From Alphaproteobacteria bacterium (GTDB taxonomy: Bacteria > Pseudomonadota > Alphaproteobacteria > SMXS01): a DNA stretch of 32,114 nt. The notes under the pieces are model-generated. The model worked only from the letters and a program-made list of their open reading frames with translations, searched no databases and was not told where the DNA came from. The stretch covers positions 1-32,114 of the forward strand of contig WGNW01000054.1 of the NCBI GenBank assembly GCA_016124315.1, in the 5' to 3' direction. Position numbers and translations under genes: made by a program. Each line of letters begins with the position of its first letter. Position 1 is the stretch's first letter. Below are positions 28,747 through 32,113 of the stretch, one piece after another.

Positions 28747-29430
28747 TCACGGCAGGTGGTCGAGCAGCTCCCGCGAGCCGGCGACGGCGCCGAACACGCC
28801 GCCCTGCATCTTGATCATGCGTACGGCGTGGTCGTGGTTGGCCCGGTCGGTCGCGGCGCAGCAGTCGTCCAGCAGCAGGCATTCAAAGCCGCGGTCGTTG
28901 GCCTCGCGCATGGTGGTATGGACGCAGACGTCGGTGGTGACGCCGGTCAGGATGAGATTGACGATGCCGCGGGTGTGCAGCACCAGCTCCAGATCGGTGG
29001 CGTAGAACGAGCCCTTGCCCGGCTTGTCGACGATCGGTTCGCCGGGGCGCGGGCTGAGCTCGGGGATCAGCTCCCAGCCCGGCTCGCCGCGCACCAGGAT
29101 GCGGCCGTTGGGATCCTCGTCGCCGATGCCGGCGCCGATGCGCCGCGAGCGCCAGCGCTTGTTGACCGGCAGGTCGGAGAGGTCGGGCCGGTGGCCTTCG
29201 CGGGTGTGGATGATCAGGAAGCCGCGGCCGCGCATGGCGTCGAGCACCGCGGCGATGTGGGGGATCGGCGCGCGCATCAGCGAAAGGTCGTAGCCCATGC
29301 GGTCGACATAGCCGCCGGGGCCGCAGAAGTCGGTCTGCATGTCGATGACGATCAGCGCCGTGTTGTCGGGAAGCAGCCGGCCGTCGAACGGCCAGGGATA
29401 GGGATCGGCGGGGATGTAGCGCTCGGTCAT
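28747..29430 (-). CDS. biuH: biuret hydrolase-like cysteine hydrolase
   Basis: Isochorismatase-superfamily amidase of 227 residues that closely resembles biuret amidohydrolase BiuH of Rhizobium leguminosarum, which turns biuret into allophanate and ammonia. The catalytic triad is D30 ([10 protein letters not shown]), K136 ([10 protein letters not shown]) and C169 ([17 protein letters not shown]). Q209 (KMQGGVFG) matches the Gln reported for biuret binding in BiuH, as recalled from that work. [19 protein letters not shown] and IGAGIGD also match it. RutB and nicotinamidase are less likely because they lack these segments. It is the last gene of a cluster led by a permease and a second hydrolase. 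No allophanate hydrolase is in the window. Confidence 0.85.
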
Positions 29431-29450
29431 GGTCGTACCGGCGGGGGTCC

Positions 29451-29476
29451 GCGGGCCGCCTCCGGCGGCGGCCCGC
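29451..29476 (-). other. 10-bp hairpin between permease and biuH-like gene
   Basis: GCGGGCCGCC (29451-29460) pairs perfectly with GGCGGCCCGC (29467-29476) around a 6-nt loop, in the 64-bp gap between the permease stop and the hydrolase start. It has no T tract. It may protect an mRNA end or reduce read-through into the last gene. Confidence 0.5.
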
Positions 29477-29494
29477 TCGCCGGCCGCCCTCGTG

Positions 29495-31048
29495 TCAGAT
29501 CTTGGCTTCCGATTTCTGCTGATAGACGAAGGCGAGGCAGACCAGGCCCATCATCAGATAGCCGACCGCGACCGGCGTGGAGTTGCCGAATCCCAGGGCG
29601 GTGCCGTTTATGAAACCGAAGAAGGCCAGGACCGCGCCGGCCAGGGAGTAGGCCGCCGCGTGGACGAATTTCCGGTCGATGATGAAGGCGGCGATGGCGC
29701 CCAGCACCATGCCGGCGAGCACGGCGCCGCCGCCCAGCAGCTCCATGCCGTGATAGATCACTCCGGCGCCCGCCAGCTTGTCCATGCCGACCGCGGCCGC
29801 GCTGGTGCCGGCGGCGTTGAGGGCGCCGTCGATCTGGTTCTGCGCCCAGGCGGCGATGTTGGGCAGGATGGCGAGGACGACGGCGGGGGCGTGCTCGGCG
29901 GGTGTCGCCTGGAACGACTGGGCGCCGATCACCAGGCCGATATAGAGCAGGATGGGCACGATGGTGACCAGCGGCACCACCGCCAGCAACAGGGCGGTCA
30001 GGCCGAGGAAGCAGACGATGGCGATCACCACGCCTGTGGCCAGCGAATAGCCGATGCGGCCGCCGACCGCCTTCCAGCCGGGGTGCCCGATGTAGACGGC
30101 GGGCGGGAACGGGCTGCCCAGGATGGAGCCGACCATGGCGCCCAGGCCGTCGGCCACCAGCACCTTGCGCAGGTCGTAGTCGTCGCCGGCGGCGGCGGCG
30201 CTCTCCACGTTGTTCATGCCCTCGGTGAAATTGTAGATGCCCAGCGGCACGGCGGTGACCAGCAACGGCCCGATGTTGCCGAGGCCGGCGAGGAATGCGC
30301 CGCCGGGGATCGGCGGATGCACCGAGAACTGGGCGAACGAGGCGCCCACGGCGGCCGGGTCCATGATCGCGTCGATGCCGCTGACCGTCGCGGCCCACGC
30401 CAGGAGGGTGCCCAGCACCACCGCGACCAGGCCCGCCGGGGCGTTGAGCGGCAGCTTCATGTTGGCCGTCCAGCAGGCGAGGATGACGGCGAGCGTCAGG
30501 AAGCCCAGCCACGGCGTCTCCCAGCTCTGGAACGCCGGCCGCATGGAGATGAAGGCGATGGAGATGCCGGCCAGGGTGCCGAGCATGGCGGCCCGGGGCG
30601 TCCACTTGCGCACCGTCGGTCCGACGAAGGCGCCGAGGAAGACGATGACGCCGATGACGAACGCCCAGGCGAGCCCCGCCTCCCAAGCCAGGATCGGATC
30701 GGTGGTCTTCAGGTACACCGGCAGCATGATCAGGAACACGACGATGAACATGTGCGGCACGCTGGGGCCGTAGGGCAGGGCGGTCACATCGGTCCGTCCC
30801 GTCCGCTGCGCCAGCCTGTACGCCAGGTAGGCGTAGAACAGATTGCCGATGGGCAGGGCGATGCCGAGCGCCGGCAGGATGCGGCCGTAGACGATGTCGT
30901 CGGGCAGCTTGACCACGCCGAGGCACAGGCCGGTGAGTACGATCACGTTCAGCACCACGTTGGTGAACAGCCCGAAGAAGCCGTTCCAGTCGCCCGACAC
31001 CCACCATTTGGGCTGGAATGCCGAGCCTCCCATAGTCATCGTTGACAT
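29495..31048 (-). CDS. NCS2/COG2252-like permease
   Basis: A 517-residue polytopic membrane protein with about 13 hydrophobic helices, resembling the COG2252 group of xanthine/uracil/vitamin C-type permeases, distantly related to AzgA. Family-like segments are [18 protein letters not shown] near residue 90, [24 protein letters not shown] [18 protein letters not shown], and [19 protein letters not shown] with [20 protein letters not shown], which replace the usual purine-permease motifs. AAGGAGAGGG precedes the ATG at 31048. Flanked by two ureide-type hydrolases on the same strand (gaps 34 and 64 bp), it most plausibly imports their substrate; the substrate itself cannot be read from sequence. 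Confidence 0.82.
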
Positions 31049-31082
31049 GTTCCCTCTCCTTGTTGGCTGAAAGCGGACGGCG

Positions 31083-31745
31083 TCAGGTCAGGGCCGCGAC
31101 CAGGGCGGGCGAGCTGCCCACCCAGCCGAAGATTCCGCCCTGGGCCTTGATCATGCGCAGCGCCATGTCCTGGAATTCCGGGAAGTAGGAGCCGACGCAG
31201 TCCTCGGGGACGAGGCAGTCGAAGCCCCGGTCGTTCGCCTCCCGCACGGTCGTGTTGACGCACACCTCGGTGGTGACGCCGCAGACGATCAGCTTCTCGA
31301 TGCCGCGGTTGCGCAGCACCGAATCCAGGTCGGTGGCGTGGAAGGCGCCCTTGCCGGGCTTGTCGACAACCGGCTCGCCGTCGGCCGGCGCCAGCTCGGG
31401 GATGATGTCGTGGCCCACCTCGCCGCGCACCAGGATGCGGCCCATCGGGCCGGGGTCGCCGATGGTGACCGGGAACCTGCCGCGGCGCTTCTTCGCCGGC
31501 GGCAGGTCCCCCAGGTCCGGCCTGTGCCCCTCCCGAGTATGGATCACCAGCATGCCTGCGGCGCGCGCCGCCTGCAGCAGCTCGCGGGTCGGTTCGATGG
31601 TCCGGCGCAGCAGCGAGACGTCGTTGCCCAGCGCCTCGCCGAAGCCGCCGGGCTCGAGGAAGTCCCGCTGCATGTCGATGATGACGAGGGCGGTCCGGCC
31701 CACGTCGAACTCGAAGGCATAAGGCTCGGCGTCGACGCTCAACAT
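31083..31745 (-). CDS. triuret hydrolase-like cysteine hydrolase
   Basis: A second isochorismatase-superfamily amidase, 220 residues, paralogous to the hydrolase at 28747-29430. The triad is D24 ([10 protein letters not shown]), K129 ([10 protein letters not shown]) and C162 ([17 protein letters not shown]), with Q202 (IKAQGGIFG) at the biuret-Gln position. [30 protein letters not shown] and ESYFPEF-like [13 protein letters not shown] resemble the triuret-hydrolase (TrtA) type as recalled, rather than BiuH. TrtA would release ammonia from triuret to give, after decarboxylation, biuret. ATG 31745 has AGGAG eight bases upstream; the longer frame to 31832 adds a non-family leader. Exact substrate is uncertain. 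Confidence 0.78.
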
Positions 31746-31779
31746 CGGGTCTACTCCTGGCTTGTCATGCGGGAAGGGG

Positions 31780-31796
31780 GCGGCCGCGACGGCCGC
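31780..31796 (-). terminator. GC-rich hairpin between outer-membrane and hydrolase genes
   Basis: GCGGCCG (31780-31786) and CGGCCGC (31790-31796) form a 7-bp stem with a CGA loop in the 89-bp gap before the hydrolase gene. It could attenuate read-through from the outer-membrane protein gene. No T tract is present. Confidence 0.3.
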
Positions 31797-31834
31797 GTCA
31801 ACGACTGGGTCCGTGCAAATTCCGCGCCGCATGG

Positions 31835-32113
31835 TCAGAAGCCCATGCCGATGCTGAACGAGCCCACGACCACGTCCTTGTGGGGGCCGTCCACCGGATC
31901 GGCGGTCCCGGTCAGGGTCTGGGCGAAGCGGAGCTGCTTGTTGAGGATGGCGTAGTACTGGACGCCGACCGCCGTGTACCAGTTGCCGTAGCTGGACGGG
32001 ATGAACTGCAGCGGCAGCTTGAGCGTCAGCCCGGTGCTGAACACGCCGACGTTCTGGCTGCCGCCCCAGTACGACTTGGGGCCGACGGTGACCCAGGTGG
32101 GCGCGCTCAGCGT
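31835..32113 (-). CDS. outer-membrane beta-barrel protein, C-terminal part (5' end outside window)
   Basis: The frame runs off the right edge; 92 residues up to the stop are visible. They show alternating polar/hydrophobic residues with aromatics ([40 protein letters not shown]) and end in Phe, the C-terminal signature recognised by the BAM machinery. Two or three amphipathic strands can be drawn, each turning at a Gly/Asp-rich loop ([13 protein letters not shown]). The family is not identified; a porin or FadL-like transporter is possible. It lies on the same strand as the permease and hydrolases, 89 bp from the TrtA-like gene. Confidence 0.7.

Follow-up and report, generated by a model that had tools for sequence, protein, structure and literature searches.

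A putative triuret and biuret gene cluster with a candidate triuret importer in an alphaproteobacterial genome

The stretch of alphaproteobacterial DNA described here (the window) is the entire contig C105 of 32,114 bases, from a genome assembled in 112 contigs and 84.1% complete. Near its right-hand end the window holds a cluster of four genes which, judging from their sequences, probably serves to scavenge nitrogen from triuret and biuret, with a permease as the candidate importer of triuret. A preliminary description of this DNA had placed the four genes correctly, all on the minus strand. Their order is the end of a barrel-like gene, a TrtA-type hydrolase, the permease, and the biuret amidohydrolase BiuH, and the gaps of 89, 34, and 64 bp fit the 34-89 bp given earlier. 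The contig ends at position 32114, and the window therefore stops there, cutting the cluster within the barrel-like gene. The arrangement is taken to be more than chance because both hydrolases pass the Pfam model Isochorismatase (148.8 and 165.6 bits, cut-off 27) and because TrtA and the permease recur together in what are, going by record titles, other phyla. The enzymes are already known; the less expected part is the permease subfamily and its bond to TrtA.

The hydrolases and their partner in the genome

BiuH (28747-29430, minus strand, 227 amino acids) scores 397 bits on the NCBIfam equivalog NF050097 for biuret amidohydrolase (cut-off 370), and its best match in the PDB is the BiuH of Rhizobium leguminosarum (6azo), with 72.6% identity over the printed segment. 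The TrtA-type protein stays below the same cut-off with 285.5 bits. Its best PDB match is the TrtA of Herbaspirillum (6xix, E 8.1e-82), to which it is 60.6% identical over the printed segment, as compared to 55.6% for 6azo. The longest open reading frame of this gene spans 31083-31832; the probable start is M30, with a GGAG 8 bases ahead of its ATG, giving a gene at 31083-31745 on the minus strand that encodes 220 amino acids.

The residue positions of TrtA were taken from PMC7948467, which is cited from the available part of its text, as are PMC9800807 and PMC12625717. According to that part, second-shell residues underlie the specificity for triuret as opposed to biuret. The TrtA of the window is identical to 6xix at all 12 compared positions (DFFNEKKTECQI), and keeps D24, K129, C162, E72, K132, and Q202 as well as the second-shell residues F35, N41, E160, and I205. 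BiuH agrees with 6azo at 12 of 12 positions (DFYYEKKTDCQV); it has the catalytic D-K-C, and Y, Y, D, and V at TrtA positions 35, 41, 160, and 205. The residues tied to specificity in the available text thus suit the class of each enzyme, and the catalytic D, K, and C reported earlier are found in both hydrolases at 6xix positions 24, 129, and 162. In the tree, which covers 131 sequences, the window TrtA and 6xix share a smallest group of 77 proteins, none of them a BiuH, at a node without printed support; a group of 105 members (support 0.81) contains all full-length permease-linked TrtA proteins, 6xix, and 22 further TrtA. For the window BiuH and 6azo, the smallest group uniting the two comprises 11 proteins (support 0.89).

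The earlier suggestion of one BiuH-like and one TrtA-like enzyme is thus borne out by the family model, the closest solved structures, and the checked residues. On the RutB model the two proteins score 112.5 and 114.2 bits, far under the cut-off of 377.95, and among the PDB matches N-carbamoylsarcosine and nicotinamide hydrolases come a long way behind BiuH and TrtA. By sequence, then, both hydrolases belong to known enzyme families. The GC content of BiuH compared to its neighbours gives no sign of foreign origin.

An allophanate hydrolase, which the preliminary description had expected to lie elsewhere, is found on contig C56 (25578-27248), where it scores 804 bits on TIGR02713 (cut-off 511); the window enzymes therefore have a partner in the same genome. 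Adjoining it is a long frame that by eye resembles urea carboxylase. As predicted from these genes, a pathway from triuret via biuret and allophanate to ammonia is well supported. AtzE was not found in the assembled part of this genome, where only amidase matches of 31-36% identity were seen. In the TrtA-BiuH-AtzF operons that PMC7948467, in its available part, gives for Herbaspirillum sp. BH-1 and R. leguminosarum, both hydrolases are likewise clustered and the allophanate hydrolase comes last; the window differs in having the latter on another contig. Contigs of ammonia oxidisers (PMC12625717, available part) also carry TrtA, BiuH, and AtzF together.

The permease is tightly linked to TrtA

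The permease (29495-31048, minus strand) has 517 amino acids and, according to its hydropathy, many hydrophobic segments; it includes a conserved region with E276, N280, and E282. It gave no match in Pfam up to E 10, PF00860 included, and none in NCBIfam, and PDB sequence searches with the protein and with two profiles returned nothing credible. A profile of 33 permease members was compared to a profile of NCS2 proteins found with PF00860, giving a probability of 90% and an E-value of 1.8e-6 over 186 columns, and to one of AzgA-like NCS2 proteins (57%, E 1.1e-4, 239 columns); each E-value refers to one comparison. A control profile of one BMP-type ABC permease gave 0.3% and E 0.24. The NCS2 alignment takes in a stretch matching A-D-G/S ... 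G-G-R, and a piece of the homologue in the same-genus genome G007 reaches 23.7 bits on PF00860 (cut-off 27). From these profiles we conclude that the permease is distantly related to the NCS2 nucleobase permeases and not a member of them. The preliminary label of a COG2252-type permease accordingly holds as a distant, partial profile match, but not as a family assignment. NCS2 carriers are proton-coupled, and their fold has 14 helices in a 7+7 inverted repeat.

The homologous genes at L004 (12686-14269) and L005 (12652-14253) are labelled "regulator" in public plasmid records, a label that looks misleading for a hydrophobic, transporter-like protein. Since the family is unnamed in Pfam and NCBIfam and carries such labels, it is easily overlooked. 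The literature searched describes no bacterial biuret or triuret permease of this type; nor does it describe the subfamily, its bond to TrtA across phyla, or its role as an alternative to an ABC transporter, although coverage was partial and an earlier mention is possible.

A scan of genome contigs gave at least 578 confirmed permease relatives, and the best 80 were examined; counts out of 80 below refer to these. Neighbours were counted by tblastn with named seed proteins at a threshold of 60 bits, and the counts depend on both. The seed names come from records, from single members checked with NCBIfam or Pfam, or, in the case of PucR, XdhC-like, guanine-deaminase-like, urea-carboxylase-like, the AtzG-like protein in genome G003, FolB, and UvrC, from recall or by eye. 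TrtA lies on the strand of the permease in 79 of the 80 loci. The ends of the two matches lie a median of 102 bp apart; 68 pairs out of the 79 are no more than 250 bp apart, and the widest spacing is 4,927 bp. Going by the record titles, the linked loci span Alpha-, Beta-, and Gammaproteobacteria, Chloroflexi, and Actinobacteria. Among the non-pathogenic carriers are Acidiphilium rubrum (L024) and Terrarubrum flagellatum (L005). Together with four plasmid loci there are 83 linked TrtA proteins, 80 of which keep all 12 compared positions; of the remaining three, the L048 protein deviates at position 35 and the other two are truncated.

As the 80 loci are the most similar relatives, two broader samples were used, one of the class (385 genomes) and one of the phylum (398 genomes), which overlap in some genomes. 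A close permease (at least 54% identity) is present in 11 of the 385 class genomes, and TrtA adjoins it in 10 of these 11 (Fisher p 6e-9, with kinship not corrected for). The phylum sample gave 48 matches, and 29 loci were viewed with about 1.5 kb on each side. Here TrtA is adjacent in all 15 loci where the permease has 52-63% identity. The comparison of genomes thus shows a tight linkage of the permease to TrtA. The earlier remark that this permease type is not usually linked to biuret has to be recast: close relatives nearly always adjoin TrtA, and BiuH is near only 5/80 permeases.

The enzymes that follow TrtA vary. An AtzF-type amidase is near 33/80 permeases and AtzE near 7/80; one or the other is near 37/80, and 33 of these loci are without BiuH. 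AllF is found near 29/80, AllG near 29/80, and AllK near 30/80; AllG or AllK occurs in 31/80 loci, most of which also have AllF. In 25/80 loci a stand-alone protein matches the C-terminal portion of allophanate hydrolase, and 23 of these 25 loci have AllG or AllK as well. In twelve of the 80 loci neither BiuH nor any of these other enzymes was found, some of the twelve being short stretches. As the later steps vary and TrtA and the permease stay together, the permease is read as bringing in the substrate of TrtA.

The stand-alone protein is about 130 amino acids long (L026, L028, L034, L050, and others) and matches only the C-terminal allophanate hydrolase part, as tested for the L050 copy; it might decarboxylate carboxybiuret. 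The available part of PMC12625717 places triuret genes of comammox bacteria beside allFGHK as well, as in many of the permease-linked loci.

Other observations concern the wider permease family. In L172-L175, L186, and L187, permeases of about 44% identity lie between AllG, an oxamic transcarbamylase, and AllK, a carbamate kinase, with no TrtA nearby; these permeases are possibly carriers of an oxalurate-like ureide. At L190 (8513-10114) the genes on either side of a relative with 38-40% identity were named by eye as XdhC-like and guanine-deaminase-like, a context that hints at purine transport in the wider family. A Chloroflexi metagenome genome has two tandem permeases of the same family beside one TrtA (L065, 8843-11976).

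Alternative transporters and the genes of related genomes

In the class sample 40 genomes have a hydrolase match and no close permease, and 20 loci were hand-picked among the higher-scoring ones. A BMP-type ABC transporter adjoins TrtA in 17 of these 20: in 14 the BMP binding protein is accompanied by two permeases and an ATPase, in one there is the ATPase at a contig end, and two have a diverged set (24-39%); the remaining three loci have none. BiuH is near 15 of the 20. The plasmid loci L106 and L107 both hold a BMP-type set with BiuH and TrtA. In L106, from Rhizobium indicum, TrtA and BiuH lie among the BMP-type ABC genes together with AtzD, and the window has a single-chain permease instead. 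No match to AtzD was obtained in the window by tblastn, and the four BMP-type ABC proteins of L106 gave none there at E 1e-4 (the contig ending at 32114). The available text of PMC12625717 reports an ABC transporter, bmpA-nupABC, and a cytosine permease, codB, on the contigs of ammonia oxidisers, and names no permease that could be equated with that of the window.

An order sample of 10 genomes, seven of them in the genus, was searched for matches at E up to 1e-30. The permease and TrtA are both present in five of the seven genus genomes, and neither is found in the other two. G003, G005, G006, and G007 each have a single hydrolase match, so none was found for BiuH at this threshold. In G003, G005, G006, and L013 the barrel-like gene, TrtA, and the permease come after matches to AtzE and AtzH and a regulator of the GntR type. 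From this comparison BiuH is an extra in the genome of the window, at the end of a shared gene set. The right-hand neighbours of this set in these relatives, an SDR gene followed by FolB-like and UvrC-like frames, agree with those of the window.

The permease gene of two same-genus genomes has one in-frame stop, TAA in L013/G007 (L013 8705-8707) and TAG in G006 (L099 4119-4121, contig C79, minus strand). The two stops are at different places, each replacing a TAC tyrosine codon of the window, and reflect either decay or assembly error. In the window itself a tRNA-Leu called by ARAGORN at 29790-29858 on the plus strand was taken as false, since it lies inside the conserved coding frame of the permease. 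Rfam gave no match anywhere in the window at gathering scores.

The barrel-like gene (31835-32113, minus strand) is open at the contig edge and encodes the C-terminal 92 amino acids of what is probably an outer-membrane protein. A counterpart precedes TrtA in the four other same-genus genomes having the permease-TrtA pair, and in L019. The fragment is 75% identical, over its length, to the gene in the same place in G003, 79% to that of L013, and 53% to that of L019. Neither the fragment nor its homologues in L013, L097, and L019 had a match in Pfam, and the putative barrel nature is therefore read from the sequence by eye; its substrate is presumed. Searches of the other contigs for the rest of this gene and for the GntR regulator gave only a 27% match, and 31% and 42% matches, respectively. 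The preliminary description saw a complete route from the outer membrane to the cytosol; this fits the position of the barrel-like gene before TrtA in the genus and in L019, but the barrel seed matches at only 5/80 of the best permease relatives, and three of those five have another type.

Proposed route and competing explanations

If the cluster works as proposed, triuret would cross the outer membrane, perhaps via the barrel-like protein, and the permease would then move it across the inner membrane, probably together with protons. TrtA would then split triuret to carboxybiuret and one ammonia, and carboxybiuret would lose CO2 to give biuret, either spontaneously or by means of an enzyme not seen in the window. 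A half-life of about 20 minutes for carboxybiuret in the TrtA assay is given in the available part of PMC7948467. BiuH would convert biuret to allophanate with release of ammonia, and the last two ammonias would be set free by the allophanate hydrolase encoded on C56. We infer the direction of transport, its substrate and proton coupling, the role of the barrel-like protein, and all enzyme activities in this organism.

A broader reading, for and against which the scales are about level, is that the permease represents an unnamed NCS2-like subfamily of dedicated triuret importers, which occurs with TrtA in several phyla and usually replaces the BMP-type ABC transporter. TrtA and the permease would make up a fixed core for uptake and attack, joined to BiuH, to AtzE/AtzF, or to AllFGHK. 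Where AllFGHK is the partner, phosphate may cleave off the carbamoyl end of biuret or carboxybiuret, and triuret breakdown would thereby yield ATP via carbamate kinase.

Several observations weigh against the proposed route. The 80 loci are the most similar of at least 578 and were obtained with a search alignment of five permeases that all lay beside TrtA. One close relative, L032, is without TrtA in the stretch examined. In the class genome G332 a partial match to the permease is accompanied by BiuH on the opposite strand but not by TrtA, and the genomes of three distant class relatives (26-31%) gave no match to a hydrolase at E 1e-40. In the phylum sample TrtA is adjacent, within about 1.5 kb, in 0/14 loci at 42-44% identity. 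Four of these 14 relatives sit between AllG and AllK, and for two of the four about 17.5 and 18 kb of surrounding sequence showed no TrtA; nor was there one at the three loci (35-40%) viewed among 18 weaker matches. As to the alternation of transporters, three of 84 permease loci (L011, L016, and L003) also match the BMP binding protein at 33-35%, two more (L045 and L005) match the transporter ATPase only, and L151 and L169 from the broader samples hold both permease and BMP-type matches, and the TrtA loci L108-L110 have neither transporter nearby. The exchange between the permease and the ABC transporter is thus not strict. Finally, the genome is 84.1% complete, and the contig is broken off inside the barrel-like gene.

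The competing explanation that fares best, though it is unlikely, is that the permease carries small ureides in general, or biuret, and that its linkage to TrtA reflects a shared use of ureides and not a specificity for triuret. The permease of the window does lie between TrtA and BiuH, and the relatives at 44% identity between AllG and AllK without TrtA, together with the L190 relative (38-40%) by XdhC-like and guanine-deaminase-like genes, suggest that the wider family may carry several purine-derived molecules. What speaks against it is that BiuH is near only 5/80 permeases and TrtA near 79/80, and that four same-genus genomes have the permease and TrtA and gave no BiuH.

Less probable still is that triuret is incidental and that the TrtA-type enzyme acts on a different ureide derived from purines and akin to oxalurate, which would be the natural substrate, or on the product of that ureide. 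The presence of AllG or AllK in 31/80 loci, mostly with AllF, would agree with this, but all 12 checked positions are conserved in 80 of the 83 TrtA proteins linked to the permease, and according to the available part of PMC7948467 the crystallised TrtA has at most 0.5% activity on the other substrates tested, a table in which oxalurate does not appear. It is very improbable that the permease works outwards, releasing biuret, carboxybiuret, or another product or intermediate, and is no importer of triuret. Biuret might accumulate where BiuH was not found, which is near 75/80 permeases, yet an AtzE/AtzF-type amidase is near 37/80, in 33 cases without BiuH, and AtzEG reportedly uses carboxybiuret (PMC7948467, available part); moreover, TrtA without the permease usually adjoins an ABC system that includes a BMP binding protein and is taken for an importer. 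That the cluster serves guanylurea, the TrtA-type protein being a hydrolase of guanylurea or some other isochorismatase-like enzyme, is scarcely credible: guanylurea hydrolases are reportedly up to 65% identical to other members of the family, triuret hydrolase included (PMC9800807, available part), but among solved structures TrtA is the nearest, and the protein agrees with it at every TrtA position checked, in a comparison that included no GuuH sequence.

Urea fertiliser contains triuret and biuret as by-products (PMC7948467, available part), and their microbial breakdown decides the entry of their nitrogen into soil. If the permease of the window and its relatives import triuret, many unannotated genes could be named, and the TrtA-permease pair would serve as a marker for triuret use. 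The exchange of later enzymes around a constant pair would then be a clear case of a modular catabolic pathway.

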